A stretch of DNA of 52,609 nt from a virus. A program made the translations under genes and the position numbers. Positions 7,701 through 26,600 of this stretch are shown here, piece by piece. The notes under the pieces are model-generated. The model saw only the letters and a list, made by a program, of their open reading frames with translations. It was not told the DNA's origin and did not search any database. Each line of letters begins with the position of its first letter. Position 1 is the first letter of the stretch. Location: the IMG/VR virus record IMGVR_UViG_3300042691_009302, positions 1 through 52,609 of that record. One strand, 5' to 3'.

Positions 7701-8624
7701 GTCAACAGTAGCTGTTATGTATGGAGAGTTTGTTTGTACTTCGATTAATAGTTTGTCAAACAAATTTTTGTTTTCAGATTTTAAACTATCTACAAACAAG
7801 TGCAACACTTCTTCTAATGCTGTTGCTGAAGTTACTCTACCTTTTACTAAGTATATTTTATTTTTATATGCAAAACCATTAATCTGTTTACCTTTAGTAA
7901 TCAATGGTTGGAGATTGTTATTCTCCTTAAGCATTGTAGCTAATTTCTTTTCAGTAATCCATTCTACAGTTGCACCTTTGAATTTTGATAACAAAGGCTC
8001 TATCACTGCTTGTATTACATCTTGTTCTTTTGAAAAATATTGATCTTCCATATCTCCAGGTATAACCTGAGTAGGTATGGTTGTATTTTCAATAGGTCTT
8101 TCAGATAATGAAATAGCGTAGATGGCTTCCCCATTTACCATATTCACAGCTTTCTTTGAAACCTGAACTTGAGGATACATCTGCTGCATACCAACAATTA
8201 TCTTATCTACTTCTTCTTGTGTAAAGTTCTTGACAGATCTAACAGCAACACCTAACTTATTAGGTGCAAACTCAATGTACTTACTTACTAATTCAATTGG
8301 ACTAAGTGTTCTATCTAACATCCAATTTTTATGGTAATGTTTATTTGCTTCGTAGTATATACCATGAATAGCATCTATCTCATATAATGTTTCTTTTTCC
8401 CAACTTATATTTGATGACATATCATTGAGAATATCACCTTTCTTATGGTTTTTTATAATATCTCTTTCTATACCATATGCTTCTTTGAGATACGTTTTTA
8501 AGTTAGTATGAATAACTGATAAAATAGATTGATTTAAAATTTTACCACGACCATTTATAGCACCTGCTTTAATAAACTCAGAGTGTATTGCTTTCTTTGC
8601 ACTACCTATTTGACATACTTTCAT
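1749..8624 (-). CDS. Giant virion/polyvalent protein with RecB/Cas4-type nuclease domain and coiled coils (2291 aa)
   Basis: The N-terminus begins MKVCQIGSAKKAIHSEF. Around residues 240-290 there is a degenerate zincin-like segment in which ALEEVLHLF (E271-E272-x-x-H275) replaces HExxH. A PD-(D/E)xK nuclease of the RecB/Cas4 type follows with all motifs visible: GTFLHAFME (H526, E530), GRLDF (D627), KDFKT (D641, K643) and QIGAY (Q691, Y695). Residues about 780-1500 are dominated by charged coiled coil. The last 600 residues contain large aromatic-rich segments and one hydrophobic helix near residue 2140, followed by an acidic stretch. This multidomain plan fits the 'polyvalent' proteins that phages eject with their DNA. 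The nuclease could act on host or competitor DNA or on the phage's own; its target is unknown. The start is the first ATG, 12 bases after the previous stop. Confidence 0.8.
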   Translation of the reverse strand: MKVCQIGSAKKAIHSEFIKAGAINGRGKILNQSILSVIHTNLKTYLKEAYGIERDIIKNHKKGDILNDMSSNISWEKETLYEIDAIHGIYYEANKHYHKNWMLDRTLSPIELVSKYIEFAPNKLGVAVRSVKNFTQEEVDKIIVGMQQMYPQVQVSKKAVNMVNGEAIYAISLSERPIENTTIPTQVIPGDMEDQYFSKEQDVIQAVIEPLLSKFKGATVEWITEKKLATMLKENNNLQPLITKGKQINGFAYKNKIYLVKGRVTSATALEEVLHLFVDSLKSENKNLFDKLLIEVQTNSPYITATVDLDYSDQNGFDQSTRDIESVTRGLRDAYFRERSERPEGIESSSFLKLARMFFKWFVEKLNDVFDMVIDSPRGDISKIPLNATLGEVAAYLNINDVVFTGLETTGVRYNIDPGTEEYDPDSLNQQQAEVEKKPLKQIKIERAEDQINRLKRIIIRLKKDPSAALMVATAEKLLTNTQEYIQLLESDAQTVSVTKFVGSPLFPESLSEKFLKFQQFGTFLHAFMEDLMLTALETGYTPLQILNNNPGYFASFYEENSDLINIEGLDEKGKVVGKILQEKLSDDIINIVGIVNESFSKGEVIIPEITIYGLDSMDRVVDGRLDFIIIRKDGSVAVKDFKTTKSNVPMTRYSHNAIFNQYFSTALSDGVHPAFQRFPGRSKASGFLAQIGAYKRILAQMGIQSKGDSIINILYSPEKSNYYASKDNNFVYDRMFVAEVPIEGEFGLITRLDENGVPTNEVNPLYTRVLQALYSSIPVENEGSFDDAVNNVERDLSDIATIPAEKVKLIIEKLKNQIDTQLRQINDELGRMSVNKADEPKIKELRERKQLIRETRDWFDKTFREGEEVKKLPDELILKGVLDKTKQLAKNLRDSSEKIATEENFKTALTKLGIRNKQYNDLKSFLLDFKDALLANVNEDNPVIREINESITIIEKGQTYFLDLASQQFSEVLLSLPKKNVEDMLKSAELMYEHEKEKLERIVAGDASVFAKSKFVLGKVLRKIIGSQSSATATTITDAMKEEAQKKLDKINYFLQYKTFDKEMIKDYVDNIIHNPESGFYLGSTILKGFGSLTGDDFRASYGNSELAITAMANYFVKMTQEANMRFFDRMEKIKVGSLTKKFASMFGSNQAANEAISQVIRVKNFETGEYEDYLSFRGPIDPFYIEKIDEFDYKLSQFAKERQAIKDSNVSDDKKKEEYKKLDERKKELRKQYTNYLVENSNPKLVPELYMLEVSLPEEIYEQIEELNTKINTIRAKANNKDWNIDESGRLEIKSLEYQISKLRKQAINDDPTLQEIFKKRDEYYEYHVNDGGFEYARNQVLKEYGENSKEYKIWLDLNSDLVPNPDWVRDYEALMQQRRDILSSIGDPYLDELYEERRKLMSKHRFVSRYSSTSIYNPLYMSEEDYEELMEIEKEIAAFYEEDSGAFSALSYADKKELRRIKNEMAKIKSTQNKPEFDKELDDRIKELIRIDNEIGVITDPDEISKLKQQYAIKEQEFKIWYDRNNTVKYTIGTIASKGKVDSAPRKFNTMAVPTDPNLMIRVPNSYYRTRTYKPAAYNPEYSPTLEKRRYGQGGYPSPKGIMYNKETGRFDIAPNAKWVNPKYREMAQNKEVLDFFNTYIMDEYYNKQVDMSANKLGFFFPGDTQSAYDTLMTDGLEGAKREAREWINNNIVFGGSKLDEASNKYGIAGQHRIRFSHNYKLPASLGTKDGINAVLKWGMQYEIYQSMEEANLAISPVIELLKDIKTKVQGNEVAARQIDKVIEIFEFEQNKFVYGKTYDAPDNAEKTFARRKLFRQFMSAISWGRLAFDPAMQGGNLVSGNVQMFLSTQGDRGLGTWKDWAFAKLQMYGKDGFLYNVILDWGKVDQVSLSTKILRYFNPTMNSMDKVLATANRSLSQRLLNRAFSFGDLAYVIQDKGEMEIAMSTLLKNLSAHKFNVYEMQPDGKTKMLDQNGNPILKKDQEGKLVTVSAYEALVDSGLATPGIRYDVAMTMEDLEAIRNRTHQEYLQYQGNYADQNQTKIESSMFGVLLMFFRKYLEPFIENRFKGAFGIGDPKNWVAGDMQMGWWTAFFKIFGDKGMLQGASQLLPEFLSTKIGGAKYNEYYKSKAGQVRREILFAFLATFAYVSLRGLLYGTDDDEDKDKELTWAQMNSMRLMAKVANESRSMVWIPYIGKADDFISNFATFTSAFNEGKTISKLVENTGYYLSYELFDSEYAHKRGYYQKDSYRYERDTPKAIANMLQLSGIENALDFFEPEFAVKKQFRKTD

Positions 8625-8636
8625 ATTAAATATTTT

Positions 8637-10604
8637 TTATAAACAGAATGGATTATCAGATTCATCTGTTTTATTTCTTTCAATTTCTTCTTGCCACTCC
8701 CCAAAACCTTCCCATGCATCTAAATCTTCAATATCTTCTTCAGCAGCTTCTGCTGGTTTGAATTCAATTACATAATTACTATCTGAGTAGTTTGTAAAGT
8801 CGATTCCTTTATATCCTCGATTCATTAAAAATCTAAAGAACTCTTTTTGGTTTTCTAATCCTTCTTTAGAATTATCTAATAGATCAAATGATTTTCCTGT
8901 TAATCTTCTATACTCAAGAAACTCATTAGTATACTCAGGAGAATATCCTTGCAGGAAGTATGCTGTATTTACTTCTACAGCTCTTACATTAGATCCATAC
9001 TCCATAGCTTCTTCTTGACTTGTTGTATAATAATTAAACATTCTATTGTCTACTTTACCACTAACTCCTTGATACACAGTCTTTTTCTCACCAAATGCAT
9101 CTTCCATTAAATTACTTGCACTAGATTCATAATTAAAATGAGCAAACTCTTTGTAGTAAAAGTTATACGAATCTAATGATTTTGTATAAGGTACAAACAC
9201 TCTCCAATCAGCAAAGTCTTTTGCCCTACCCATTTTTAACTTTGCAATCATAATTTCTTTCCACAACTTAAAATAGTTTTCATGCTCTTCTTGTAGAGGT
9301 GTTAGTCGTACAAAAAAATCAATATTATATCCAGTTCCTTTAATATAGTCTCCTTTATTATGTTTTCTTCTTTGTTTTTCTTTTACGTTAAAAGATTTTT
9401 TTGTCACAGGATCTTTTCTATAGAAACTAACTTCTTCTTCATGATAACCATCTGAATCATAAAACTCTCCATCAATAACACCTATTACAGTCAAACTTTC
9501 AAAATCATATTTATGTTCTTTACCATAAAAAGCACTCACTAATTTATAATTAGGATAAACTTCTTTAAACTGATTATACCAATTAAATTGTTGTAACCAT
9601 TTATCAACTTGATTTCTATCTTTAGGTGGTTGACCACTCCATACATCATAGATTGGATCAATATTCTCACCATCTGGTGAACTTAAATCAAAAGGTACTA
9701 CAAAATCTAAATCGTGAATTGACTCTTCAAGAGTTCTGTATACTGTACCTGCTCTTCTTAATGCAAGACTTCCTGTAGATACTAGACCTAATGCTTGAGC
9801 CCTGGTTAATATTTGATTTGCTCTAGGGTCAGATTCAACTGTTTCTTTATAATATTTTCTAACAGCATCTTCTGAAATTTTATAATTATAATACTCATAA
9901 TTTCTATCAAGAATTTCATTTGCTATTGAAGTACCTATATCATCAAGATCCTGTTCAGCTTGTTTTTTTGTTTTAAAATGTATCTTATATCCTGACAAGA
10001 AGTTTTCAATCCATCTCATGATTTTTTCCCATATTGTAAAGTCTTCACTAGTCCATTTAGTGTCTAGTCTCTTTACAAATTCTTGTCTATTGAAATAATA
10101 ATCTTCAATATGTTCTTTTAAGAAATCCACAATGACTAAGTCATTAATTGTTCTAGCCCACTTATTTTTATCTTTAATCCAACCACTTCTAAATGAATTA
10201 CTTGTAGCATGAAATCTCCATCTAGATTTAAATTTATCCCATTTTCTAATAGCGTATCTAAGATCATTTGCTAACTTATCATTTTCTTTACCTAACATTT
10301 TATATGCAAAGTATGCAACTTCTGAAGTAATTGATTCTCCTTTATTATATGCAATCATTTTAGCAACTAAATCAGAAGCTGTATATGCATTAATGTTTAG
10401 TTCCTTTTGTATATTCTGATACTCAACAGCATCAATACCAAAGTCTTTTAGAAAACCATTTATTAATTGATCATTTAGTGAAGTGTAATAACTCTCAGGG
10501 ACAGATCCTTCATGCTTGTCCCATAGATAGTGAGCCATTTTAAGACCTTGAACTTCTACAAGTCTAATCCACTCTTTTGAACTTTTATTTGGGCAATTAG
10601 CCAT
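8637..10604 (-). CDS. Polyvalent protein: nucleotidyltransferase fold plus ADP-ribosyltransferase-like domain (655 aa)
   Basis: It begins MANCPNKSSKEW...YLWDKHEG, an N-terminal module I associate with giant crAss-like virion proteins. A polymerase-beta-type nucleotidyltransferase signature lies at STGSLALRR (G278-S279), HDLDFVV (D298, D300) and YNIDFFV (D429), giving the G-S, D-x-D and third-Asp set of this fold. The C-terminal part (about 508-620) has VYQG near 511, YYTTSQEEAMEYGS, NRGYKGIDF and YVIEFKP (E614), which resembles the ART domains found in phage polyvalent proteins; the usual H-x-G is Q-G here. The gene sits 1 base after the RNA-polymerase megagene and 12 bases before the nuclease megagene, so all three are made together. 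Substrates are unknown. The nucleotidyltransferase call is fairly firm, the ART call less so. Confidence 0.75.
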   Translation of the reverse strand: MANCPNKSSKEWIRLVEVQGLKMAHYLWDKHEGSVPESYYTSLNDQLINGFLKDFGIDAVEYQNIQKELNINAYTASDLVAKMIAYNKGESITSEVAYFAYKMLGKENDKLANDLRYAIRKWDKFKSRWRFHATSNSFRSGWIKDKNKWARTINDLVIVDFLKEHIEDYYFNRQEFVKRLDTKWTSEDFTIWEKIMRWIENFLSGYKIHFKTKKQAEQDLDDIGTSIANEILDRNYEYYNYKISEDAVRKYYKETVESDPRANQILTRAQALGLVSTGSLALRRAGTVYRTLEESIHDLDFVVPFDLSSPDGENIDPIYDVWSGQPPKDRNQVDKWLQQFNWYNQFKEVYPNYKLVSAFYGKEHKYDFESLTVIGVIDGEFYDSDGYHEEEVSFYRKDPVTKKSFNVKEKQRRKHNKGDYIKGTGYNIDFFVRLTPLQEEHENYFKLWKEIMIAKLKMGRAKDFADWRVFVPYTKSLDSYNFYYKEFAHFNYESSASNLMEDAFGEKKTVYQGVSGKVDNRMFNYYTTSQEEAMEYGSNVRAVEVNTAYFLQGYSPEYTNEFLEYRRLTGKSFDLLDNSKEGLENQKEFFRFLMNRGYKGIDFTNYSDSNYVIEFKPAEAAEEDIEDLDAWEGFGEWQEEIERNKTDESDNPFCL

Positions 10605-10605
10605 A

Positions 10606-13600
10606 TCAACATAATTTTTTTAATATTTCACCAACTTGAGAAGGACTGTATCCTAGTTCTCCTAATAATTTACTATTTATTTGAGTAATGTTATATGACT
10701 TACCATCACGAAGTGTCATTGTATTAGGAGCTGTAGTTTCAGGATTACGTCCCCAATAGTTATATCCTTTAGAAGTTTTTCCTGAAGGTGTACCTAATCC
10801 CTCTTGGACTAAAGCTTCTCCTTCTACATTCCAAGATCTATTTGCATCAGCAGTAGAATCCATTATAACAGTACCTCCTGATTCTAACACTTCTCTTGCA
10901 TTTTCAATAGTACTTTCTATTGCATCTTCTGTAGCAACACGATTACCATTTACACTAACAAAAGCTATAGTATTTTCATCAATTACACCTTCGTAGTTTA
11001 CAGGAATACCTTGACTTTTTGCATCTTGCTCATATTGGAAAGTACTTGTATTTGGTTTACCATAACCAATAAAGTGATTAGCTAAACTAGCTTTACCTTG
11101 GTCTTTGCCTTTCTTATCAATTGAAATTGTAAATCCTTTTTTACGATTAGCTGATTGCCCAGTTGTTTTACTCTTATCTCTATTGTTTACAAAATTAGCA
11201 AGTACATCAGCATGAGAGAAGTAACCACCTTTCACCATAGTACCATTCAGTTGCTCTACAGATTTAGGTTCGTAGTAAAGGAATGTTTTACCATCAAGAG
11301 CTCCTGATCTAATTTGATCAATGATCCAAGCTCTTCTTTTAATACCATCTTCTTTACTAATTTCTGAATTACCTGGCCACTCTCTGTTGCCAGCAATCCA
11401 ATCTCTATATGCTTGAGATGCTTCTGCAATAGTTCCAAATGCTGTCTTATTATCTACAACATCAGTTCTACCTTGTCTCTTACTACCAATAAAAGGATTA
11501 CCAAATTGTTCTATCTGATTACCTTTTCTCATTACCATTACACCTTTATCAGAGTACACTGGTAAATTCTTAACATCATTCCACTTAACAGTATTGTCTA
11601 CTTTAGCTTTTACTTCAGGACTTTGAATTGCAGCTGCATTATTAGCTGCAGTTGGTTTACCTTTAGTATATGAAACAAGCCACATTGTACTAGTTTTTCT
11701 AGCAGGTGATAACCACTCTTTCATTTTAGGATCAACTTGCATTTCTTCAAATGAAGAAAATCCTAACTTGTTTGCAAATAGATTCATTTGATCTGTAGTC
11801 ATGATTTTACCATTCACATAAAGTTTAGAAGTTCCTGCTGGTACACTATACTCTTCAATAGTACTAGTAACCATAATCTTCTCACCATTCAATGAATAAT
11901 TCTGACCTCTCATTCTATTTGCAATTATACCACTATCTACTTTAATATAACTACTTTGATCAAGAATATGAGCAGATGAAGGAAGCGATGGTAAAGAAAC
12001 TTCTGAAGTAATACTTTTATATCCTAATACACCATTTCTAATTTCAGTTGCTGCTTTATTCGAAAATGCATTTGGAAGAATTCTATCTAATCCTTGTCTA
12101 CCAACTATCTTATACTTTGCTGTATTACCTCGTAGTAAGTAGTTAAAGTCTTCTGTGCTTTGGTACGCAGTAAATAAGTTTTCAAAGAACTGATTATTAA
12201 ACGGCTTTCCATCAATTTCAGTTAATATAAATAGCTGACCACCTTCATAACTATTAATTTGATATAAAGGAAATCCATACTCTCCTTTTCTTGTAGGATA
12301 AATACCCTGAGATTTTAATAACCTATCTGTTTCTTGTTTAAAGTCTTGAGGTACATCTGTTAAATCAAAGTATAACTCTCCTCTTTCATCACCTTTCCAG
12401 AACTCAAACTTAGTAGTTTTAGATTCAGTTAATCCTTGTGTAATTCTTAAATTACTAGCAGGAATGGTTTTATTTGTATCAACATTAAACTCATATACGT
12501 ATTTGTAATTTTTAGGAAGTATCTTATCTACAATCGATCTGAATAAACTAAGTTCTATATCTGAGAATTTACCTGGAGAAAACTTACCTTTATCTTTACC
12601 AACTGGTTTATAAAAACTCATTCTAATACTAGGACTACTTGTTGCATTTCTAGTTACTACAGATACAAGCTTTGTAAGAACTGACTCTAAAGCTTTCTGA
12701 GATGTTTCACCTATTCCCTTAGACTTATCCATGTAATAGATCTCTGAAAACATTTCATCTAAACCTCTAAGATATTTTTCTAAGTTATCAGCACTGCTGT
12801 TATCAATACTATAAAGTTTAGATTGAATAAGATCTAATCTACCACTAATGTATTTAAACAAATCAGGTGCAATTACTTTTAAGTATCCACCTGTTCTTGA
12901 CATAGCACCATCTCTTACAATACCATGAACTGCAAGTTTTATTGCTTTCTCATGTATATCATTATCATTATCATAAACTAATTGATAAAAATCATTAATC
13001 AATCTTTCTTGTAACTCTGGTGATACTTTATCTCCTGCAATAGAACTTAATACTTCTACACTTCCTTCTCCTTTATAAGTAGCTGGTTTTAGAACAAGTG
13101 AATTTAAAAATTCGTTATTAGGAAATAGTTCTTGTAGATAAAGCAAATCATTTTCAATAGTATTATTCAACCAATATTCTGAAGTCATTGCATCAGTTAA
13201 AAGTTTCAAGAATGTTTCTTCTACTGTAGGATTTGTTTTATCCATTTTTGAAACTACATCTTCAGCATACTTACCTAAAGTAGTCAGTGCTAATACAGAT
13301 TTTAATTCTGAAATTACAACCTCTTGACTAACAGATCTATCTTGTGCAAATAAACCAGTGATTGCTTTGAATAAATTAGTTTCATCTAATAGTAATTGCT
13401 TAGACTTATCAATCATATCAGGTATAGCCACTTCAGCTAATGTACTTAATGATGGATTGTCTTTTAAAATATCAGTGGCATTTTCAAACATCTCATTGTT
13501 TTTGATAAACTTAACTGCATCTTTTATTTTAGTTAAGCTATCAAACGATGGTCTAATTTGCTTATAGACATTTGTAACTGTTGATATTTTAAATGAAGTA

Positions 13601-16600
13601 GCATTACCAACTGCTAACATCTTATTATAAAAAGATAGTAAAACAATACCTGCTAAATCATCAGGAAGTATTTCTTCTTTTCTTCCCTTTTTAACTGAAA
13701 CAGAAATATTAAAATCAGATGGCTTATCAGATCTCAACACTGTACCACTTTGAATATCTTTAAATGATATAGTAGTCTTAGAATGATCAATTTCAAAATC
13801 TGATTTCTTAGATGTTTCAGATGGTTGTAATAGACCAAGCTCTTGTAGTCTTGTAAAGTTTTCAGTTATCAAATAACCAAGTTCGTTATTTAAAAATGTA
13901 CTAAATCCTATTTTGAAGAATCCAGTTCTAGAATAACTTGGATCATTCTGAATATTAAACTTGTTGATTAAATTACTGAATATATCAACAGAATTAATTA
14001 GTCTAGCAAATTGAGGAGGGTATCCATAAATGTAAAGAGCATTTATTAAAGAGCTGTTGATTCTGCTAATATTTAATGGACCTAAAGCTTGATGACTAGG
14101 ATCATCCACTGACATACTAATCGCACCACCTACTAGTTCTACTGCATTTTCTAAAGGATTTTTAGTATCTATCTTCTTACCATTATACTTAAACTTGAAA
14201 GTATAAGGATCTGTTAACTTAACTTTTGAAGAAGATAACAAAGCTGCTGCTTTATTCTGATTAGCATTAGCACCAACAGAATCTTGTGATCCATTATTTA
14301 TGGCACGAATTCTACCAATAGTTTGTGGTAAGAATGGATTTGCCTTATCTATATTTTTAAACTTAGTAACCTGACTTACTATTTCTCTATCTGATAAATA
14401 CTGATTAATATACTGAGCAGAGTTTGCATTTTTGATAAATCGCTCATATACTTTTGGATTAGATAATAGTTTAATCTTTAAGTCTAATATTTCATTCTGT
14501 AACACTGGTGTAACTGGTGTACCTTCTTTTACAGAGAACTCATAAAGCTCTTCTTTAGTACTAGGTAGTCCATACTCTGTTAATACATTTACCACAGATA
14601 CAAGCTTCTCCATTAAACTTAGTGTATTCGAAACTTGCATCATATCACCTTGGATAAGATTTTCATCAAAGTCCCAAATAGCTTTAATATGTGGACCGAA
14701 GTTACCTGCAATATTTTGCAATGATAATCTTCTATATCCCATGTTAGCACTTTGCTTTTTAATATCTGCTTCTATCAAATCTTGGAAAGCAGGATCTTCA
14801 GCCATAAAGTGTAAGTACTCTACAAACTTAGCTTCTGATAAAGTCAAACCATACTTTGCACGATATAAATCATAATCACCATACTTAAGTAGTTCACCAC
14901 GAACTGTTCTGTAATAGTCTTGAACATCAGCATACAACGAGTCAATATCTAAGTCAGACCCAGCCCACTTGTGAACTTGAATAGGTACTATAATAGAGTT
15001 ACCATAAGTAGCATCGATGTAGTCTACAACTTTTGCAGATACTAAAGATCTGTGAGCTTCTGTAGGGATACGAGAACCTAAAAATTCTGAGTAGAGTTTT
15101 TCGAAGAATTCTACTTCTTGAGGACTACTTGCAAGTTCTCTTGGTATAATTACTTCTATGACTATCCTAGTTAACTTTCCATTTTTATCATACTCTTCTT
15201 TTACAGTAGGATATCTTGTTCTGTAACCTTCGTATAATTCAGGGTTAGCATCTAAATCAGTTCTAGATACAACATTATCATTATCATCTACTACTACTTT
15301 ATAACCTGCTCCAGAAACGTGGAAGAACTTCTTACCTGCTACCTTAGGTCCAAATAGATTGTTATTGAATATACTAAAGAAATAAAACAAAGGAGTTTTA
15401 CCTAAGATTGGTAAGTTCATATTAAACTTATTCTTACCATCTTGTAACTCGTAGTACTTTAAAATATTTGTTCCTGCACCTTGTTTTATTAAACCTGCTT
15501 GTATTGCTTTTGTTACAACAGTAGCTACATCATTTACTTTAAATCTTCTTTTTAAGAACTGCATTCTGGCATTGATGATCTGATTTTGTTTATCAGCCAT
15601 TTGCCCAACTTCTTTAAACTCTTTAGGATCTAATTGAGAAGGTAGTAATAACTTCTTCTGAATAGCATCTGTATTTGTACCTTTTATATTTCCAGTCTTA
15701 ACCTGCTCATATACAAACGAACTAGGAATACCTATTTTGTTATAAGACAAGTTAATATAACCATTTTCTACTGAAGGTACTTCGCCACCCATTAAAGGAT
15801 GACCTTCTGTGATACCTTGTTCTAGTAATGGTAAGTTTACAACTATTGGAGATACAGTTCCTCTCTTACTAACATTCTCATCAAATGTCACATCTGTTCT
15901 GTGAAACTCCAAAGAGTTTAACATTATATGAAGAAACTCACGACCTTTTTTAGGTTTGAAGTAACTATGAATTTCTTGAATGATTCTTTCATATTTTTCA
16001 ATAGGTGTCTCCCCTTCTTCAAGAGAATAATTATTAAAATTGATACCATCTAATTCATCATATAATTTACCAATAACTTCAGGATCACCAGTTACATAAC
16101 TAACATCTGTTCTATTAATGTAATGTTCAGAATCTTTTAAGTAGTAAGTAGGATCTGCTACCACTGGTTTATCTGAGTTCAATACAATGTCATTATCTCT
16201 TAACAACTTAATTTCAGCAGCTGTTAGTGTAGTGTATCTTACTTTCTTTATAATTTTTTCTAACTGACTACCTTTAACTAAGATTCCATCTTTTAGATAA
16301 TTCTTAATTCTTCTAGTAATAGCACTCCAAGCTTGACCATCTGCAATAGGAAATTCTTCAGATTGCTCTGAAGGACTTGTTGTCATTGGTGCAGATAGAT
16401 TAGAAGTATTTAAGTAACCATTGAATTGCTTAAAGAATGATACAGTTAACATATCATCTCTTTCGTCTATTGTAACATTACGATTGTTGTTACCAGCAGC
16501 TACTCCTGACTTTTGTCGTTTAAAGTATTGAACAAAGTTCTTAATACCTACTGCAATGTTACCATCAAATACTTGATTTACAAATAGAGAGTTAAACCAT

Positions 16601-19600
16601 GTATTATAAAGGAAGTCTCTCAAGAATGCTTCTTTTCTTTCTTTCGTTCCCTTTTCTTCTCTTATATAACTAGTTCCCTTTTTTTCATCTTCTACTCTAG
16701 TATACCCTGTAAGCTTTTGTCTTTTACGATCAACAAAAACATTTAATGGTAAATCATCAAATCCAATATCTAATGAATTTAAATAGTCATAAAAATCATC
16801 AACAGCATCTTCACCATAATTGTATAACTCATCTGATAAAACATCATTTACTGTTTTTCCTGTATCAACTCCAGTTTCATCATAAAACTTTTGAGCAATA
16901 GCTTCTTCAAATGATAAGTTATTAGTAGCTGCTGTTATTAATGCTTCTTTTAGTTTTTGTCTAGTTGATACTTTAACAGGATCAGAGTATTCATTTTCTT
17001 CTACTTCAAAAAAGTCTTTTAGATAATTGAAGTTGTAAGCTCTAAGTTTAGGATTTACAGTGTCTGTACTACCATCGTATGATGTAATTACATTGTAACC
17101 TTCATGTCTAATTTTAACATCATCTCTACTACTCCACTCATTCCATATTTCTTCAAACTCTTGCTTTACTAACTTCTTAAAGTTATCTATAATCAGTTGG
17201 TCATTAGAATTATAATCATAATATAATCCTGTAACATTAAACTGAGTACTAGTTGCTTCTAACTGAGTAATAGCTCTATCAAATAAAGTAATTGTTTGAC
17301 CATAGTTTCCAGTAACTGTTCTTCTATTGGCAAACATTCCTAGTAGAGATAGCATGTATCCTTTCTCTCCAAGACCCTTGAATGTACTTTTGTTATAGAC
17401 ACCATTGTATTCCTGATACAAACCACCAGCAATGGAGATATCCATTAACTCTAAAAACATTTTTATAGAATCATTTTCAATTGCTTCTTTGGTTTTCTCA
17501 CCAGTAATTGGAGTAGGATTTATTGCAGTACTAAGCCAAGGGTTATTACGAAACCAATTGTTTAACAAAGGATAAATGTAATTTAAACCTTTTTCAAAAC
17601 CTTTTTGTTGTAACTGACTAATGATTTGTATGCTGGGAACATAAGGTACAAACTGACTAATAGGTTTGTTGTCTTGATTCAAGACCATTGTACCACTTAA
17701 TCCTGGTTCATACTTTGAATGGAATATAGCAATATTACGATATTCATTTGTTAAGGTGCGAATAGTACTATCTTTTACAGAATCAGGTTTACCAATACTA
17801 TTAAGAACACCTAAGTATGCTTTTAAAAACTTTGGCATATCCAAATAACTATTGGACTCTACAAATTTTTGATCTGTTCCAATTATCTTTTCTACTTTAG
17901 ATAACAAAGCAGACTGCTTTCTGTAGTTAGGATCTTTAGTACTTAATCGTTTAAATTGTTTTTTAACAACAGCTGCAACTGAAAATTCAATTACATTTAC
18001 TGGAATATTTAATTGACCTAATGATGTAAGTCTATAGATATAAGCAATCGCATTATTTAGTTCAGTTACTGTAGTAGGTACATTAAAGTTATAAAGATTA
18101 AGCTCATCAATTAGTTTATCTAGCTCATCTTGATAAATTACATTTAATGTTCTTCTAGCAGCCACTGATAAATTATTCAAAACAACATTTACATCATTCT
18201 TTTGAATTAAATTGTCAACACTATATTGATTTTTAATAGGTGATAATTCGCTACTCTCTTTTACTTCTCTAGTTACTTCTTCAAAGTTTGTATCAATAGA
18301 TACAGCTAACACTTCTTTTTGTGCATAGAAGAATACATTATGAAACATATTAAAGAATCCTTCTCCTACTGCTCTAGTAGGTTTAAAGTTTTCATCTAAT
18401 TGTGCTTGCTCATTTAATGTATCATACACTGCCTTTAATGAATTGTATTTATCAATCATTTTAGACATGTCTTGAGGAATACGTCCTAACTCATTTTCTA
18501 GTTTTGATTTTTCAAATCTATCAATGTGTAAGCGTAAGTACTCAATGTGATCTACAAGATGACTTATAATATCTTCTTTAGGTACATTAACTGTTATTTT
18601 TCTGATGATGTTTATTACATTTTTACTGTTCACCATCTTGTCGAACTTGATACCAGTTTCAGCATCTTCGAACTCATACTTTATATACTTGATTAACTTT
18701 TGGAATTCTTTACTACCATCATAAGGTTTATATGTAAGAATACCTTCATCATCGTATTGTCTATCTCCTACAGTTTCTTCACTTTGTAATTCAATAGTAT
18801 CACTGTTTTCACTTTCAGGAGAAGACTCTCTATCATAATCATCTTCTTCAGAAGATGTATCTTCTTTTACTAAACTAACACTTTCAAATCTATCCTTTAC
18901 TTCTTTTAAAGTTTTATTATAAGCCTCAATAGAAGTCTCATGATTTGGCTCTACTTTATTTAAATCGTAATTGTCGTACCTAGGATTTGATGAGTTATTC
19001 TCTAACATAAAGTTCTCTAGTATGTTCTCTCTATGTGCAGCACCCATCATAAAACGCATGGCTCTAAACATAGGCTCATACTTTTCAATGAACCTTTTAC
19101 TATTAGACGAATCATCTTTTACAAAGTTACTTGCTCTGAAGTAGTAGATAAGTTCTTCTGTTACTTCATTGAATACTGCTTGAAAACTTTCTGGAGAACC
19201 TTTCTGAATATCATAAGATCTCTTGAGCATCTCTCTAGTGATTCTATCAACAAGTTGATCAGTAGTGTAGCTATCAACTTGCTTTCCAATTACATCTCCT
19301 TCTGCATCTATAGACGTTGGTATAAATGTTAATTCATATGCTCTTGGAGCTACCATTTCATCTCCAATTACATTATGGTATTTACCATTATCGATTGATC
19401 TGTATAATTGATCAATTGATTCTTTTGCTGTTCTATAAGACTTGCCTCTAAAGAAATCTATTAGTTTAGATAATCCTTCATATAATCTTTGAAGTAGTTT
19501 GTTTTTTGGTTCTACTTTATTTAGTTTATACTCTCTAAAGCCCTCAGCTAAATACTCTTCATAAATGTAATCTGCAATTTGAGCATCGTCTATACCACTA

Positions 19601-22600
19601 TATCTTCTGTCTTTTCTAAACTGATCAAAGTAAACATTCTCACCACGCATTCTAATATATATCCTACCATCAGCTGTTTGCTTAGGTTCTCCAACCATGC
19701 TTCTCACAAGAGCCAAATACTTAGCTCTTTCTTCTTGTGTCAAACTAAGTCTAAATACAGCATGGAATGCTTCATGATAAACTACACCTGCAACCTTTAA
19801 TGCAGAATTAAGCGTGATTACTCTATTCTCATAGTATCCTAATGCAAAACCATTTACGTCTTCATTAGTCATGTCTTCAGATTTGTGTTCAACAGTAGAA
19901 CCTAAAAATCTTTTGACATCCTCAATCTCTGCTGCAATTCTTTCATCAGATACTTTCTGTAAACCTTTTAGTGCAGATACAATACTGAATGTTCTTTTTT
20001 TAATTTTTGGTTTAACTTCTTCTGTAACTTCAGTCTCAGCAGAAGGTCTTACTCCTACTGGTGCTGGTTTACTATTTGCTAAAGTATCACCTGTGATTAC
20101 AGCAGGTCTAGCAACTGATAGCTTTAACATATTGTTTGCATTCTTAACACCAAATACTGAGTAACTCACTAATGGGTTAATACTTTCTGCTTTAGTTCTA
20201 AGTTTAAACTCCTCACTTGTATTAGTTCCAAATATTGTATTTCTAAACTGAGTAGGATCTGCTATGTATGGATTTTTACCAGCTCCTACCTCTATACCAT
20301 GTCTATCAAGAATACTATTTAGTTGAGAGTTTATATTATTCACAGAACCTCTAAAAAGATCATTTAAATTTTGAATTGCTTGATTAGCTTCTAGACTTAA
20401 AGATTCTTTATTCTTTTTAATCTTTTCAGCTAACATTGCACCTAAAGTAATTCTATCTTCTACAGATTTAAATTCTCCAGGTTTAATACCTAATTCTCTA
20501 TAAAGTGTATCTAGATTTTTTGAAATATCAGCAAAGTTAAATGAAAAAGAAACCCTTAGTTTTTTATCATTAAACTCTTGATTCAAAGGATACTCTTCAG
20601 TAGCTCTAAATGTAATACCAAACATAGGTTCACCACCAACCATTTTTAAAAATTCAACATTGGCAAGTAAACCAGATTCAGCTAATGCATTAAAGCCCCA
20701 TCCACTATTGTTAAAAGTTTGAATAAACTCAGAAATATCTGCTGCATTATCTCCTAAAAACTCAGGTCGATATTGCATAGCACTAAATAAAACAGATAAG
20801 AAATCAACAACTTGAGTTTCATCTGTGATATAATTAATTTTTACCATAGGATGCGTATGCCATTTATTAGCCATACGTACTAAATAAAAATAATTATACG
20901 TAGATAGATTTGGAGAATTTGCGTTTTGTGTTAAGCTGTTTATATTAACTCCTTCTCTTTCAAATAATTCTTGGAATGTAATAGGATTATCAAAGTCATC
21001 AATTGGTTGATATCCTGTTTCAATAGAAGACTCAAATCGAATACCATTTGGTGTTTTCTTAATTACACCAACAACATTTTCTGTACGTATTGTACTAGGA
21101 ATTATTTGACCATACAATACTTTAGCAACACGAGTTGTTATTACAGAACTAGTAGATTCTAATTTTGATTTTAGATTGCTTAAGTTGTCTTCTGGTTTAG
21201 TTGAAGTAAAATCATACTTCATAAATACATTAGCTATATCAATATATTGCTTGTATAAATCAGTAGGTACTTCAATAGCTTCTTCATTCTCACTCATCAA
21301 ATCTAAAATTGTATTTTTTAGATTTTTAATTCTTTGAACAGCTAGTTTTAAATTATGCAGCTCTGTATCATTTGGTGCAACATACTCATAAGTTTGTGCT
21401 TTCTGTTCTTTTGAATAAGGTTTCCATTGAAATAATCTTAAAGATACTTTTAAGATATCTAAGTCAGCCTGACTATCCCAATCTATATACCTAGTTTCAC
21501 CATTAGGATATACAAAACCTAAATCATCTATACCTCTAATATAATCCCAGTTAATACCTTCTGAATCTGATAAAATTAAATCTACACTAGATTTAGAATT
21601 TAAAAAAGTAACAATAGGTTGTCTAGGATTTAATGCTAAAAAGTTAATTTGATTTCTTCTTAATTGATTTTCAAAATTAATATTATACCCTAAAGCTCTT
21701 AATCGCTCTACTCTTCTTTTGTTTATCGCACTTCTTCTTCTATCTGCAATAAGTCTTATTTGACTTTGTAGACCAGTGCCTGGCTTTAAATTATCTGCTA
21801 TTCTTTGATGCCCTGGTTTGTTATCTAATTTAGCATCTTTAGCAACACCTTCTGGATATATTCTTACATTATCAAAATCTAAACCTGAAGATTTTAGATT
21901 AGTATTTAATCTTAACAGATCTCCATAGTTATTAACTACATGTAAGTTTTCAGTGGTTTCATAATAAGGCCTTACATAATCATTAGGCTTTACTACATAC
22001 TCTTCTAATAATTCTAAGTTTGTACCATCGAAGTCTTCAGGTACTACATAATACTTATCATTAATAAATAATGCTTCAATTAAATTACCACTCTCTTGTC
22101 TAATTAAGAAAACATTCTTACCAATATTATCAATTGAACTAATGTCTATAAATTCAGTTGATAAAGTAGTGTCTGATAAATTTTCTTTTTCTGTTTCAAT
22201 AATAGCAAGAGCCGTTGCTTTAACACTAGTATCTTTTTTAGAACTTAATGCTTTAGCAAAATTATCTAGAATTTGAATCTTCTGCTTATTCGAAAAATCT
22301 CTTGATTGATTAAGTATTCGCTGAACCTCATTTAAAAGAGATAACACTTGATTACTTTTATCTGAACTATTAAGCTTTACTAGAATATCGTTAATCTTTT
22401 GAAGAGGAGTTTTTTCAGAAGGAGTTGGTGCTATCTTTCCTGTAAGCAAATCTTCAAGATTATTTTTTTCTAATTTCATAGGTGCTTTCCCTGCCTCTAC
22501 AGCACTCTTCTCTTCACCTATACTGAATCCTTCAGCTTTTTCTAATGTACCAAAACGAGAAATGATTCTATCACTTTTTGGAGATACTCTGACAACTACA

Positions 22601-23601
22601 TCAGAATCTTTAATATAAGCTTTAGTACCAGTAAGGACTGTAAATCCTTTGCTTGTTAGTTGTCTTATTTCATTTAATACAATCTCATTTATTTCACCTT
22701 TGTGATCATGCTCTACTACATAACGATATATGAAATCACCATCTGTCTCACCTGGATTCTTTTTAAATTCAGGATGTCTTCTTTGCATTTCTGCAATCAT
22801 TAATTGATCTGAATCAACAACACCAGGATTAGATTTTACAAAAGTAGATTTACCAGCACCAGGAGTAGCATAGATTAACTTACCTCTAAACTCAGGTTTA
22901 AGAGTAGTAGGTAATTGTAAAGGAGTACTTGTTGTAGGTGTTTCATCAGAAACAACAGGTCTAGGACTTTCTAATTTAGCTAATTGTTTTTCAGCATCTT
23001 CTAAAGTTTGTTTAGCACTTTTTATTGTTTCATCATATTCAGCAATATCTTTTTCTAGTTTTTCTACTAATGCTGGATTTGTTGCAAGATTTTTTCGACT
23101 TACAAGACCTTTTCTTTCTTGTTCGTATCCTGGTATAATATCATCTTTATAACTTGCTATAACTGCCTTTAAAGATTCTATTCTCTTTAATGTTTTTTCA
23201 GAAACAGGAGAAGGTTCAGCAGGAGGTGGAGTAATCTCAGTTGGAGATTCTGCAACAGGTCCTTCTAAAGAAGCAGTTGTAATTTCTTTATTAGATAAGA
23301 TATCATCAATACTTTGTAGTAAAACTTTGTAATCTGCATTAGGATCTGTTAACTTATCATATACTAAATCACTAATTTTTGCAGGCAATCCTTCTGTGAC
23401 AATATCATCTTCTAACTTAAGAGCATTATTATAAGATAACCCCATAAACCAAATAGCATGAACCTTTGCCTCTTCATCTACACCACGAAGATTCATAATA
23501 CTTATTATTGAGTTTCTATAAAATCTGTAAGTTTCTCTATCAAACTGAAGAGACTTGTCAAACAATTTTTGAAGTTTTTCGTAAGGAATTCTACAAGACA
23601 T
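10606..23601 (-). CDS. Virion-packaged single-chain RNA polymerase megaprotein of crAss-like phage (4331 aa)
   Basis: Domains in order, numbered from MSCRIPYEKL: a helical N-terminus; coiled coil about 130-210; a P-loop NTPase (ATPGAGKST, K251); a zincin with HEAFH at 1276-1280 and a downstream glutamate-rich EEYLAEGF; a very acidic linker near 1600; a large region leading to the RNA polymerase core with WAGSDLDIDSLYA (D2883, D2885, D2887), the D-x-D-x-D metal-binding loop of the second double-psi beta-barrel; and a C-terminal DUF4326-like module (FGNPFIG near 4031, SHADVLA near 4127) plus another small alpha/beta module. The crAss-like family enzyme is known to be packaged and to transcribe early genes after ejection. 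The frame is open from 23631, but that ATG lies inside the preceding gene. The ATG at 23601 leaves a 7-base gap and gives an M-x-C start like its neighbours, so I prefer it. Confidence 0.85.
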   Translation of the reverse strand: MSCRIPYEKLQKLFDKSLQFDRETYRFYRNSIISIMNLRGVDEEAKVHAIWFMGLSYNNALKLEDDIVTEGLPAKISDLVYDKLTDPNADYKVLLQSIDDILSNKEITTASLEGPVAESPTEITPPPAEPSPVSEKTLKRIESLKAVIASYKDDIIPGYEQERKGLVSRKNLATNPALVEKLEKDIAEYDETIKSAKQTLEDAEKQLAKLESPRPVVSDETPTTSTPLQLPTTLKPEFRGKLIYATPGAGKSTFVKSNPGVVDSDQLMIAEMQRRHPEFKKNPGETDGDFIYRYVVEHDHKGEINEIVLNEIRQLTSKGFTVLTGTKAYIKDSDVVVRVSPKSDRIISRFGTLEKAEGFSIGEEKSAVEAGKAPMKLEKNNLEDLLTGKIAPTPSEKTPLQKINDILVKLNSSDKSNQVLSLLNEVQRILNQSRDFSNKQKIQILDNFAKALSSKKDTSVKATALAIIETEKENLSDTTLSTEFIDISSIDNIGKNVFLIRQESGNLIEALFINDKYYVVPEDFDGTNLELLEEYVVKPNDYVRPYYETTENLHVVNNYGDLLRLNTNLKSSGLDFDNVRIYPEGVAKDAKLDNKPGHQRIADNLKPGTGLQSQIRLIADRRRSAINKRRVERLRALGYNINFENQLRRNQINFLALNPRQPIVTFLNSKSSVDLILSDSEGINWDYIRGIDDLGFVYPNGETRYIDWDSQADLDILKVSLRLFQWKPYSKEQKAQTYEYVAPNDTELHNLKLAVQRIKNLKNTILDLMSENEEAIEVPTDLYKQYIDIANVFMKYDFTSTKPEDNLSNLKSKLESTSSVITTRVAKVLYGQIIPSTIRTENVVGVIKKTPNGIRFESSIETGYQPIDDFDNPITFQELFEREGVNINSLTQNANSPNLSTYNYFYLVRMANKWHTHPMVKINYITDETQVVDFLSVLFSAMQYRPEFLGDNAADISEFIQTFNNSGWGFNALAESGLLANVEFLKMVGGEPMFGITFRATEEYPLNQEFNDKKLRVSFSFNFADISKNLDTLYRELGIKPGEFKSVEDRITLGAMLAEKIKKNKESLSLEANQAIQNLNDLFRGSVNNINSQLNSILDRHGIEVGAGKNPYIADPTQFRNTIFGTNTSEEFKLRTKAESINPLVSYSVFGVKNANNMLKLSVARPAVITGDTLANSKPAPVGVRPSAETEVTEEVKPKIKKRTFSIVSALKGLQKVSDERIAAEIEDVKRFLGSTVEHKSEDMTNEDVNGFALGYYENRVITLNSALKVAGVVYHEAFHAVFRLSLTQEERAKYLALVRSMVGEPKQTADGRIYIRMRGENVYFDQFRKDRRYSGIDDAQIADYIYEEYLAEGFREYKLNKVEPKNKLLQRLYEGLSKLIDFFRGKSYRTAKESIDQLYRSIDNGKYHNVIGDEMVAPRAYELTFIPTSIDAEGDVIGKQVDSYTTDQLVDRITREMLKRSYDIQKGSPESFQAVFNEVTEELIYYFRASNFVKDDSSNSKRFIEKYEPMFRAMRFMMGAAHRENILENFMLENNSSNPRYDNYDLNKVEPNHETSIEAYNKTLKEVKDRFESVSLVKEDTSSEEDDYDRESSPESENSDTIELQSEETVGDRQYDDEGILTYKPYDGSKEFQKLIKYIKYEFEDAETGIKFDKMVNSKNVINIIRKITVNVPKEDIISHLVDHIEYLRLHIDRFEKSKLENELGRIPQDMSKMIDKYNSLKAVYDTLNEQAQLDENFKPTRAVGEGFFNMFHNVFFYAQKEVLAVSIDTNFEEVTREVKESSELSPIKNQYSVDNLIQKNDVNVVLNNLSVAARRTLNVIYQDELDKLIDELNLYNFNVPTTVTELNNAIAYIYRLTSLGQLNIPVNVIEFSVAAVVKKQFKRLSTKDPNYRKQSALLSKVEKIIGTDQKFVESNSYLDMPKFLKAYLGVLNSIGKPDSVKDSTIRTLTNEYRNIAIFHSKYEPGLSGTMVLNQDNKPISQFVPYVPSIQIISQLQQKGFEKGLNYIYPLLNNWFRNNPWLSTAINPTPITGEKTKEAIENDSIKMFLELMDISIAGGLYQEYNGVYNKSTFKGLGEKGYMLSLLGMFANRRTVTGNYGQTITLFDRAITQLEATSTQFNVTGLYYDYNSNDQLIIDNFKKLVKQEFEEIWNEWSSRDDVKIRHEGYNVITSYDGSTDTVNPKLRAYNFNYLKDFFEVEENEYSDPVKVSTRQKLKEALITAATNNLSFEEAIAQKFYDETGVDTGKTVNDVLSDELYNYGEDAVDDFYDYLNSLDIGFDDLPLNVFVDRKRQKLTGYTRVEDEKKGTSYIREEKGTKERKEAFLRDFLYNTWFNSLFVNQVFDGNIAVGIKNFVQYFKRQKSGVAAGNNNRNVTIDERDDMLTVSFFKQFNGYLNTSNLSAPMTTSPSEQSEEFPIADGQAWSAITRRIKNYLKDGILVKGSQLEKIIKKVRYTTLTAAEIKLLRDNDIVLNSDKPVVADPTYYLKDSEHYINRTDVSYVTGDPEVIGKLYDELDGINFNNYSLEEGETPIEKYERIIQEIHSYFKPKKGREFLHIMLNSLEFHRTDVTFDENVSKRGTVSPIVVNLPLLEQGITEGHPLMGGEVPSVENGYINLSYNKIGIPSSFVYEQVKTGNIKGTNTDAIQKKLLLPSQLDPKEFKEVGQMADKQNQIINARMQFLKRRFKVNDVATVVTKAIQAGLIKQGAGTNILKYYELQDGKNKFNMNLPILGKTPLFYFFSIFNNNLFGPKVAGKKFFHVSGAGYKVVVDDNDNVVSRTDLDANPELYEGYRTRYPTVKEEYDKNGKLTRIVIEVIIPRELASSPQEVEFFEKLYSEFLGSRIPTEAHRSLVSAKVVDYIDATYGNSIIVPIQVHKWAGSDLDIDSLYADVQDYYRTVRGELLKYGDYDLYRAKYGLTLSEAKFVEYLHFMAEDPAFQDLIEADIKKQSANMGYRRLSLQNIAGNFGPHIKAIWDFDENLIQGDMMQVSNTLSLMEKLVSVVNVLTEYGLPSTKEELYEFSVKEGTPVTPVLQNEILDLKIKLLSNPKVYERFIKNANSAQYINQYLSDREIVSQVTKFKNIDKANPFLPQTIGRIRAINNGSQDSVGANANQNKAAALLSSSKVKLTDPYTFKFKYNGKKIDTKNPLENAVELVGGAISMSVDDPSHQALGPLNISRINSSLINALYIYGYPPQFARLINSVDIFSNLINKFNIQNDPSYSRTGFFKIGFSTFLNNELGYLITENFTRLQELGLLQPSETSKKSDFEIDHSKTTISFKDIQSGTVLRSDKPSDFNISVSVKKGRKEEILPDDLAGIVLLSFYNKMLAVGNATSFKISTVTNVYKQIRPSFDSLTKIKDAVKFIKNNEMFENATDILKDNPSLSTLAEVAIPDMIDKSKQLLLDETNLFKAITGLFAQDRSVSQEVVISELKSVLALTTLGKYAEDVVSKMDKTNPTVEETFLKLLTDAMTSEYWLNNTIENDLLYLQELFPNNEFLNSLVLKPATYKGEGSVEVLSSIAGDKVSPELQERLINDFYQLVYDNDNDIHEKAIKLAVHGIVRDGAMSRTGGYLKVIAPDLFKYISGRLDLIQSKLYSIDNSSADNLEKYLRGLDEMFSEIYYMDKSKGIGETSQKALESVLTKLVSVVTRNATSSPSIRMSFYKPVGKDKGKFSPGKFSDIELSLFRSIVDKILPKNYKYVYEFNVDTNKTIPASNLRITQGLTESKTTKFEFWKGDERGELYFDLTDVPQDFKQETDRLLKSQGIYPTRKGEYGFPLYQINSYEGGQLFILTEIDGKPFNNQFFENLFTAYQSTEDFNYLLRGNTAKYKIVGRQGLDRILPNAFSNKAATEIRNGVLGYKSITSEVSLPSLPSSAHILDQSSYIKVDSGIIANRMRGQNYSLNGEKIMVTSTIEEYSVPAGTSKLYVNGKIMTTDQMNLFANKLGFSSFEEMQVDPKMKEWLSPARKTSTMWLVSYTKGKPTAANNAAAIQSPEVKAKVDNTVKWNDVKNLPVYSDKGVMVMRKGNQIEQFGNPFIGSKRQGRTDVVDNKTAFGTIAEASQAYRDWIAGNREWPGNSEISKEDGIKRRAWIIDQIRSGALDGKTFLYYEPKSVEQLNGTMVKGGYFSHADVLANFVNNRDKSKTTGQSANRKKGFTISIDKKGKDQGKASLANHFIGYGKPNTSTFQYEQDAKSQGIPVNYEGVIDENTIAFVSVNGNRVATEDAIESTIENAREVLESGGTVIMDSTADANRSWNVEGEALVQEGLGTPSGKTSKGYNYWGRNPETTAPNTMTLRDGKSYNITQINSKLLGELGYSPSQVGEILKKLC

Positions 23602-23608
23602 AGTTATA

Positions 23609-26600
23609 TTACATATTACAGTTAAGTCCATTTATAAGATCATCATCTTCAAATGGATTTGTATCTATTTTATTATTTTGATTTTCTTGACTTCTAGTAG
23701 AGTCATATTGTGAAAAGTCTAATGCTTCTTTGATTGAAGAATCTGTAAACAAAGTAACAGTTTCACCTTTCATTAAATCTTCAATCTGCACAGCAGTTTC
23801 TCTGTGCATTTTGTCATAAGCATCCTTTACGTGCTTTTCAGCACCTTCGATTGACGAGCTTCCGTCATTCTTTGGAGTACTTGGTTGAGTTTTTTTGGTT
23901 CCAGATTTCTTGTTAATCTTAGTAGTTTTAGCTTTTTTCTCGCCAGCTTTTCGCTTTCTTGGTTGCTTGTTTGTGTTTTGTTTTCCATCTTTTTTAGAAA
24001 TAGGATTTATAACAGACTTACTTAGATAATCAAGAGCATCAATTACACTCTTATTTGAAGCATCTAATTTATTTAATTTTTCAACAGCTTTTACAGCCCA
24101 GTCAAATAATTTTGTTCTATCTTCTAAGCTAACATTTTTTCTATTTTTAGGAGTAGTGAACTCTGAGAATATTTGAATAATATCAGAAGGAACTTCTGTA
24201 TCTAATATTTTTTCAATCTCTTCATTTATTTCATCCTGAGTATATGATGCTGTAGGTTTTACTTGAACACCAGGTTTTGGAGATACAACATCAGGTTGAC
24301 CTGTTAAGTCTTCTGCTAAATCAATACCAGCATCTAACTCTTCTTCTGTAAATTCTTCAGGTGCTTTGTTTTGTAAATCAAGAAATAGTCTTACAAGTGT
24401 AAGATACTGAGCATCAATTCCAAAAGGATTCATTGCAGCAACTTCCATGGAAAGTTTATATGGAATGTTACCTGAACTTTCAATACTTATTATTTCACCA
24501 CTCTCGTTTCTATTTACTGTGTAAGTTACTCCATCTATCTTTAAAGAAGCCTCATCAATATATTCTACATGGTGCTCTCTAACAACTTCTGTATTAGGAT
24601 TGACACCAGTAATTCTTTTTTCAGCTTCTGTAAGACTATCATCTACTAACTCTACACCAGGAAAATCAGATAACAATAAAGAGTTTGCTTGATCTACTAA
24701 TATAAACTTTCCAGTTACTGTATCTTGTTCCCAAGTAAATTGCTGATCTACAGAAACATCTGAACCTAACTCTTGAGTACTATTATCTTCAAATTCAATA
24801 AAATATATAGGAGCGTCTTTACCTTCTTTTTTTCTAAGGACTCCTTTCTTACCACTAACTAATACTTCTTTATCTATTAGATTTCTAAGCTTCCTGCTCT
24901 GAATAATTATCATCTCTTGTTGTTCAGCAGCTTGTTCTTCAGGAGCCTCTTGAGGATTAGCTTCATTGTAAAGTGCTTGTTCTACTTTAGTAGCAAACTG
25001 AGTTAATTGAGCACGAGTAATATTTTGAAAATCAAAATCTTCTCCAAAGTAATCTTTTAAATCTTGTTCAGTAAAAGTATGCGTGATTTGATTCTCACCA
25101 TCCACATCTACATACTCACGAGTTATATCAGTGTTTAGTTCAGTATCCTCATCAAAATTTACAAAGTAGTGATCTAAAATATATTGTTGAACTTCTGCAT
25201 CATCCATTGCTGCAAGATTAGCAGGTAAGGATCTAGCTAAGTTCTCCATATCTTTTAGAATAGCAGCTCTTCTCTCTGCTTCTTTTTCAAGATCTTCTGC
25301 ACGTTTCTTTTCTCTATTCTTGTTTTCGTCTTCTGTTAGCTTATTAATTTTTTCAATATGATTATAAACCTTTGCAATAGTATCTAATGTAGCCATTGGT
25401 GATCTTGCGATTCTCAATAACTCATCCATATCTTGTGGATTGTTTTTGATATACTCAGCAAACACTTCGCTTTCACTAGCTATGTTTTTATATTCATTAT
25501 GAACTAATCTTGCAAATGCACCAACTCTTGCATCCTGATAAGCATGCATGATATTAATAGAGTTTCTAGTATCAGAAAGTAAATTAACAGCATCAATGTA
25601 TTCTCGCGAATCTCGTGTAAGTTTTTGATAATCATTAATATCTTGTAATACACTTTCTACTTCTGTAAGAACTGCAGGATTGTTTAATCCATTCTGTTTA
25701 TTCTTTATAGTGTAATACTCAGTTAATATATCTCTTAACTTAATTTTCTTTTCTTGAGTTGCTTGTGAAAAGTTAATAGGAACCATTAACTTTTGTTCTG
25801 GATCTGTAGGATCTTCTATCTCCTCATACGATTCGCTGTTCCACTCTTCAAGTAATTCTAATTCTCTTTTTTTATCTTTAATTAAATCTAATGTTTGCTG
25901 ACTCTTTGTTCCAGTAGCTTCTTCTAAGATTTCAATTTCATTCTTTAATATATTAGCTTGAACCTCTGCTGTATTGTGATCAGTGACATTATTAAAAGTA
26001 GTGGTAGATGCTTGACCAATTGATTTATTTTTTTCTGAAATAGTTCTTGCAATATCAGCAGCTCTTATTATACCATCTTGTGATTTAGCTTCATTAAATG
26101 CAATAGTATGTATTGCATCTTGCAAAGCTGCTTGTGCTATACTATGCTTTTGTTTTGCGTGAGGATCATTTGCAAATGTGTCTATTGTAAAGTATCTAGC
26201 AAATTGACTATTATATTTTTCATAGATGTCACCATATCTATCTAACTTATTAGTTAAATCTGCAATAAAATCTGCAGGAGATGTCATACCATATTCTGTA
26301 ACATTTATACCAGTAGCTTCTTTAAATTCTTCAACACTAAACTCACTACCATAAGCATTTAAGAATTCTTTAAATGCATCAAATGTTCCCATTCTTTTTG
26401 CATCAAGAGCATGTGTTATAATTGCAGAAGATCTATTGTTAAAGTATTCGTACTTTGCACCAGACGAACCTGCCTCAACCATTGCTCTATTAAAAGCAGC
26501 TTGTTTCTTAATAGACTCAATTGGCTTCTTTAATACTTCATCAGGATCAGCAAGAAACTGATTGTAAGACTCTAGAGTTCGCTTTAAAGCTTCTTTGTGC

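Follow-up and report, generated by a model that had tools for sequence, protein, structure and literature searches.

Crass-like phages such as phi14:2 and crAss001 are known to package their RNA polymerase (RNAP) in the virion and to use it for early-gene transcription (PMC10172136, PMC10136315), and according to one review (PMC10136315) an RNAP chain reaching ~6000 aa is a hallmark. Virions of crAss001 contain gp47, gp49, and gp50, the tail channel measures <50 angstrom at several points, and inter-subunit disulfides are present in the mature tail (PMC10172136). Because of the narrow channel, the cargo must be partly unfolded. The ordered and complete passage of a multi-megadalton cargo through such a channel is a puzzle that crassviruses share with other podoviruses.

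RNAP chains in GenBank reach 4,070 aa in Carjivirus communis, 4,098 aa in R. jaberico, 4,245 aa in cr3_1, and 5,801 aa in cr130_1, and dozens of relatives in IMG/VR have RNAP chains of 3.5-5.5 kaa in one frame. An RNAP within a giant chain is ordinary for crAss-like phages and is not a new finding. In phi14:2, the RNAP (KC821624 gp077; gp66 in the literature) is a protein of 2,180 aa whose neighbors gp076 and gp078 are virion proteins detected by mass spectrometry (MS). The structure 6VR4 is that of the phi14:2 virion RNA polymerase, reported by Drobysheva and colleagues in 2021.

Here we analyzed a viral DNA of 52,609 nucleotides (IMG/VR virus record IMGVR_UViG_3300042691_009302, positions 1 to 52,609), hereafter called the window, which encodes a zincin-like module and an RNAP core in one chain. 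This chain shares with the phi14:2 RNAP a homologous single-chain core, the GSDxDxD loop, and a matching fold, whereas the phi14:2 protein keeps both partners separate, has no fused zincin-like module, and lacks a C-terminal extension as long as that of the window chain.

Results

An RNA polymerase core lies midway in a giant chain

A single open frame of 4,331 codons without an internal stop occupies the minus strand at 10606-23601 of the window. Two ATGs are available: the first gives 23631..10606 and 4,341 aa (long form), and the second gives 23601..10606 and 4,331 aa (short form); residue numbers refer to the long form unless the short form is stated. The second ATG (23601) is the likelier start, because it lies 8 bases past the upstream stop and yields an MSC start as in relatives. 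The start at 23631 was rejected, since it would run into the upstream gene and bring in one stray cysteine. A preliminary description of this DNA had placed a DLDID loop at residues 2883-2887, with ~2,880 residues before it and ~1,440 after it in one open frame. These figures are correct for the second ATG, and the catalytic aspartate loop (14941..14955, minus strand) becomes residues 2893-2897 in the long form. The loop lies within the family context LGSRIPTEAHRS...KWAGSDLDIDSLY (in the window GSDLDIDSLY, with GYRIPTE preceding GSDxDxD), whose G, S, and three D were invariant in an alignment with six RNAPs (phi14:2, crAss001, p-crAssphage, R. jaberico, cr3_1, and cr130_1). A second D-x-D-x-D at residue 3554 was dismissed as a chance occurrence, being outside the GSDxDxD family context.

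Single-sequence searches of Pfam, PHROGs, and PDB gave no match for the giant chain, and a single-sequence scan for its close relatives found none; in the whole 52.6-kb fragment, the matches were limited to an endolysin and a handful of structural PHROGs. A search with a seven-sequence alignment of the RNAP core recovered >400 relatives. By tblastn, the region matched annotated RNAP subunits of named phages, the best being an RNAP catalytic subunit (E 5e-9). When a 32-sequence profile of residues 2100-3299 (13735..17334, minus strand) was compared with the whole PDB, the sole chain matched was 6vr4_A, the phi14:2 RNAP (E 2.9e-136). The AlphaFold model of the same residues (pLDDT 73.4, pTM 0.75) again gave 6vr4_A as the best Foldseek match (E 1.6e-20, TMq 0.54, 1,238 alignment columns), followed far more weakly by mostly other multisubunit-type RNAPs; no T7-like single-subunit RNAP fold (N4-type, Schitoviridae) was among the Foldseek matches listed. 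The core aligned without interruption to 6VR4 701-1792, a stretch that should span both double-psi barrels. The tblastn matches, the GSDxDxD context, the PDB profile match, and the fold match bear out the earlier assignment to a crAss-like (phi14:2-type) RNA polymerase, and structure prediction, which had been proposed as its check, matched 6VR4 and did not refute it. The polymerase is also, as described, one part midway in a much larger chain, which by homology is very probably virion cargo.

A zincin-like module precedes the polymerase core

Residues 1261-1421 (19369..19851, minus strand) are homologous to crAss001 gp47 2133-2293 (E 1e-7). They carry HEAFH (1286-1290) and E1359; the H, E, and H of the motif and this glutamate, 69 residues after the second His, were invariant in 24 of 24 sequences. 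The module is separated from the catalytic loop by ~1,600 residues, a spacing kept in many relatives. As its model was too weak (pLDDT 64) and had no significant PDB match, we call it a zincin (gluzincin)-like module with reference to the HExxH...E motif and the gp47 homology. These two modules reside in separate crAss001 proteins, gp47 and gp50; the gp47 homology inside the RNAP chain thus indicates that the window genome has fused what crAss001 keeps apart.

The N-terminal extension contains a Walker A-like ATPGAGKS(T) (residues 255-262; 22846..22869, minus strand) followed by VVDSDQLM; it matched no Pfam family and is poorly conserved in relatives. No Pfam domain name was found for the C-terminal extension, of which ~residues 4176-4279 (within 10609-12231, minus strand) resemble a hypothetical protein (134 aa) that the Vibrio phages SUMAE and VPALA encode, outside the crassviruses (38% identity, E 3e-4). 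Other motifs of the HExxH form were also seen. A 2,230-aa structural-block protein of the window (37286-43978, minus strand) has HEYSH at residue 260. A second HExxH of another type (HELLH/HEIMH) is found 800-2,350 residues past the RNAP loop, or in the next protein, in L042, L045, L061, L063, L076, L082, phi14:2 gp76 (L008), and cr130_1 gp80 (L004), and is absent from the window.

Cysteines face each other at the junctions of four cargo proteins

The RNAP chain is the second of four consecutive cargo proteins encoded on the minus strand by tightly packed genes with few-base gaps: a 1,560-aa protein (23609..28291), the fused zincin-like and RNAP chain (10606..23601; 4,331 aa), a 655-aa protein (8637..10604), and a 2,291-aa protein (1749..8624), the last weakly similar to crAss001 gp49 (E 0.001) and phi14:2 gp76 (E 7e-4). 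Within these 8,837 residues there are six cysteines and no more; every one lies at one of the three junctions (...NCNM / MSC...KLC / MANC...FCL / MKVC...), none at the free start or the free end. At junction 1, Cys1558, the sole cysteine of the first protein (23618..23620), faces Cys3 of the RNAP chain in the short form (MSC; 23593..23595). At junction 2, the last residue of the RNAP chain, Cys4331 in the short form and its only other cysteine (10609..10611), faces Cys4 of the 655-aa protein (MANC; 10593..10595). At junction 3, Cys654 of that protein (8643..8645), which has no cysteines beyond these two, faces Cys4, the sole cysteine of the 2,291-aa protein (MKVC; 8613..8615). The N-terminal cysteine is absent from the first protein and the C-terminal one from the fourth. 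Given six cysteines, the chance of such a placement is ~9e-16.

End cysteines follow gene splits among relatives

The end-cysteine rule is obeyed by almost every one of ~200 related loci, as well as by phi14:2 and crAss001. Nearly all chains of the relatives carry a cysteine close to the C-terminus, among the final few residues. The phi14:2 proteins gp78, gp77, and gp76 have one, two, and one cysteines, placed as in the window (gp77: MAC...QECK). The crAss001 proteins gp47, gp50, and gp49 show the same end placement, with one extra internal cysteine in gp50; gp47 is opposite in strand to gp50 and gp49, and the junction pair is still present.

In the first set of 79 loci, of which the window was one, scored with cutoffs chosen after the first examples (first 8 and last 15 residues), both cysteines of the downstream junction were present in 59 loci, and neither was present in 12 that also had no downstream protein; two were undecidable (one contig edge, one broken gene), and there was no clean contradiction. 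On the upstream side, both were present in 35 and neither in 27, with one contig edge. The rule was then fixed in writing (residues 2-7 and last 12) before 118 new loci were fetched, to which the script applied residues 2-8 and last 15. Downstream, 96/114 of these had both and 12/114 neither, with six nominal exceptions; upstream, 41 had both, 32 had neither, and 22 were nominal exceptions. Among the latter, seven had an opposite-strand giant protein ending in cysteine, three had a cysteine placed 18-32 residues before the end, and further ones were at contig edges or had a frameshift. An opposite-strand partner, a cysteine just past the cutoff, a frameshift, or a contig edge accounts for most of the nominal exceptions. 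L112 stands as a true exception, with a crAss-type RNAP and ten cysteines, not one of them terminal; L211, L108, and L134 may be exceptions; and L095, L099, L109, and L110 have no upstream partner within the fetched stretch.

Internal cysteines were rare in complete chains of the first set (87/223,290 residues, 0.039%, versus about 5.4-5.7% in the terminal windows) and in the new loci (0.054%), although several occur in some chains, including those of p-crAss-type and crAss001-type gut phages. In complete chains, N-terminal cysteines were solely at positions 3-5 and C-terminal ones mostly within the last four residues. In control ORFs, terminal cysteines were at background levels.

Where a protein has no partner, its end cysteine is missing, and in fused pairs both cysteines of the junction are gone. 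Cysteine is completely absent from the fully fused single proteins of L048 (4,730 aa) and L052 (5,472 aa). Linkers of 193, 195, and 142 aa each contain just two, one near each end, and unrelated genes between chain members encode none at their ends. A recurring non-cargo protein between chain members, with a start like MKQVEVESGELALKNSFGDIVIIP and no end cysteines, was seen in L054 (15521-17404), L210 (14898-16628), and L211 (12261-15749). Separately, p-crAssphage gp47 (L003 4691-7264), an 857-aa cargo protein, has one cysteine near its C-terminus (KQSCR), and the next protein has no N-terminal cysteine to match it.

Because the loci are related, the raw counts overstate their independence. 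In the RNAP-core tree, the end-cysteine state changed six times downstream and ten times upstream, and every independent, well-supported contrast agreed with the presence of a partner cysteine (6/6 and 7/7), leaving 13 independent contrasts.

Discussion

Facing cysteines that are present only with a partner, and that are replaced by a peptide bond in fusions, are best read as couplings. We propose, with a probability of roughly two in three, that the end cysteines form head-to-tail disulfides that join the ejected cargo into one thread, which is reduced by the host cytoplasm. The RNAP chain, with its zincin-like module and two-barrel core in one polypeptide, would be the catalytic component of the crassvirus virion RNA polymerase and would be packaged with the 1,560-aa protein encoded just before it and the 655- and 2,291-aa proteins encoded after it. 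The facing cysteines would form their disulfides in the mature virion, after lysis, and the cargo, ejected through the tail partly unfolded, would leave as one continuous thread of ~8,840 residues with order and stoichiometry kept. The reducing cytoplasm would then uncouple the thread, and the released subunits would refold into a transcribing complex. Peptide fusion would do the job of the disulfide, hence the loss of both cysteines from fused pairs, and the thread would not be cross-linkable, because cysteines are otherwise purged. The RNAP homology and fold match, the order of the domains, and the cysteine rule with its link to gene splits are observed, and from them we infer that the cysteines may bond, when they may do so, in which direction the thread may be ejected, and that reduction may release it. 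Several points weigh against coupling: some chains have a number of internal cysteines, L112 breaks the rule, the anaerobic gut is a poor site for thiol oxidation, although the crAss001 tail has disulfides, and C- and N-terminal cysteines from wrong partners could pair.

An ordinary giant virion RNAP whose end cysteines are a conserved signature with a non-covalent role, such as a shared metal site or the docking of neighboring termini, is compatible with the established RNAP identity (PDB profile and Foldseek match to 6VR4), and a paired metal or docking site would likewise need one cysteine per partner and none on free ends. We regard this reading as unlikely, since a usual zinc site needs more than one cysteine per side, no conserved His, Asp, or second Cys lies beside the end cysteine in the listed termini, and the near-absence of other cysteines over thousands of residues better suits thiol pairing. 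That the end cysteines are a DNA-level by-product of overlapping stop and start signals at packed gene borders, as the few-base gaps in the window might suggest, was rejected as scarcely credible: the pair persists in crAss001 with gp47 and gp50 on opposite strands, so gene overlap is not the cause; an MSC-starting protein of L177 lies ~6 kb downstream; equally packed intervening non-cargo genes lack the end cysteines; and control ORFs are at background levels.

The preliminary description had also raised the question of whether the chain is cut into pieces. A polyprotein from which the zincin-like module cuts gp47-like and RNAP pieces, at assembly or after ejection, would fit the gluzincin-type HExxH with its invariant E ~1,600 residues ahead of the catalytic loop and the separate gp47 and gp50 of crAss001. 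We nevertheless consider it quite improbable, because no cleavage site or conserved linker was found in the chain, relatives differ in fusion state yet keep the modules, and modeling did not confirm the zincin fold. No evidence of cutting emerged, and fused genomes, set beside split ones, point the opposite way: separate proteins seem to be coupled by cysteines, and fused ones lose them.

If the head-to-tail disulfide thread exists, it would settle order, stoichiometry, and release together, with injected proteins like railway wagons joined end to end and released in the host, and sequence alone would predict the proteins that share a thread and the start and end of each chain. With slightly more caution, we think it probable that single terminal disulfides, releasable by redox, string together head to tail the proteins ejected by crassviruses and perhaps by other phages with more than one injected protein, that evolution can exchange disulfide for peptide bond and the reverse, and that other cysteines are purged against cross-linking. 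The coupling model is testable with the cultured phages crAss001 and phi14:2. The computed monoisotopic M of putative disulfide-linked peptides is 1992.017 for crAss001 gp50 ICGANTLYEL with gp49 CAIIPQVR, 1812.823 for crAss001 gp47 CNS with gp50 CITTNSTIEELAAK, and 1155.454 for phi14:2 GEDSNTIC with ACK. Joined end to end, gp47, gp50, and gp49 of crAss001 would add up to ~694 kDa (262 + 277 + 155), and their phi14:2 counterparts to ~611 kDa. No mention of terminal cysteines was found in the literature searched, a search that did not extend to Drobysheva 2021, and earlier notice is possible; the near-universal end-cysteine rule in crassvirus ejection cargo and the coupling model seem to be new.

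Among described phages, cr130_1 (Suoliviridae) shares the domain order of the window chain: its gp79 (5,801 aa) has the HEAFH module, ~1,590 residues, GSDFDID, and ~1,570 residues, and its C-terminal cysteine faces the N-terminal cysteine of gp80, as in the window. It differs in a longer N-terminal part, recoded TAG, and more internal cysteines. Carjivirus communis (p-crAssphage) also has a giant RNAP chain with a zincin module upstream and junction cysteines at the end of gp45 and the start of gp44, but there the RNAP is fused with the downstream subunit instead, the zincin protein is separate, and the C-terminal cysteine is absent. Outside the crassviruses, the ejection proteins of three unrelated podoviruses are free of cysteine, namely gp50, gp51, and gp52 of N4 (L089), gp15 and gp16 of T7 (L090), and gp7, gp16, and gp20 of P22 (L091); T7 gp14 has one cysteine, at position 2. 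The N4 virion RNAP gp50 (3,500 aa) is a giant ejected single-chain RNAP, cysteine-free like the fully fused crassvirus chains, but it has an unrelated T7-like fold and no coupling cysteines, and the T7 gp15/gp16 and P22 gp7/gp16/gp20 proteins pass through the tail with neither end cysteines nor an RNAP. Being purged of cysteine therefore seems to characterize ejected threads, and the purge in N4, T7, and P22 suggests a wider rule that would be useful for spotting such proteins in metagenomes.
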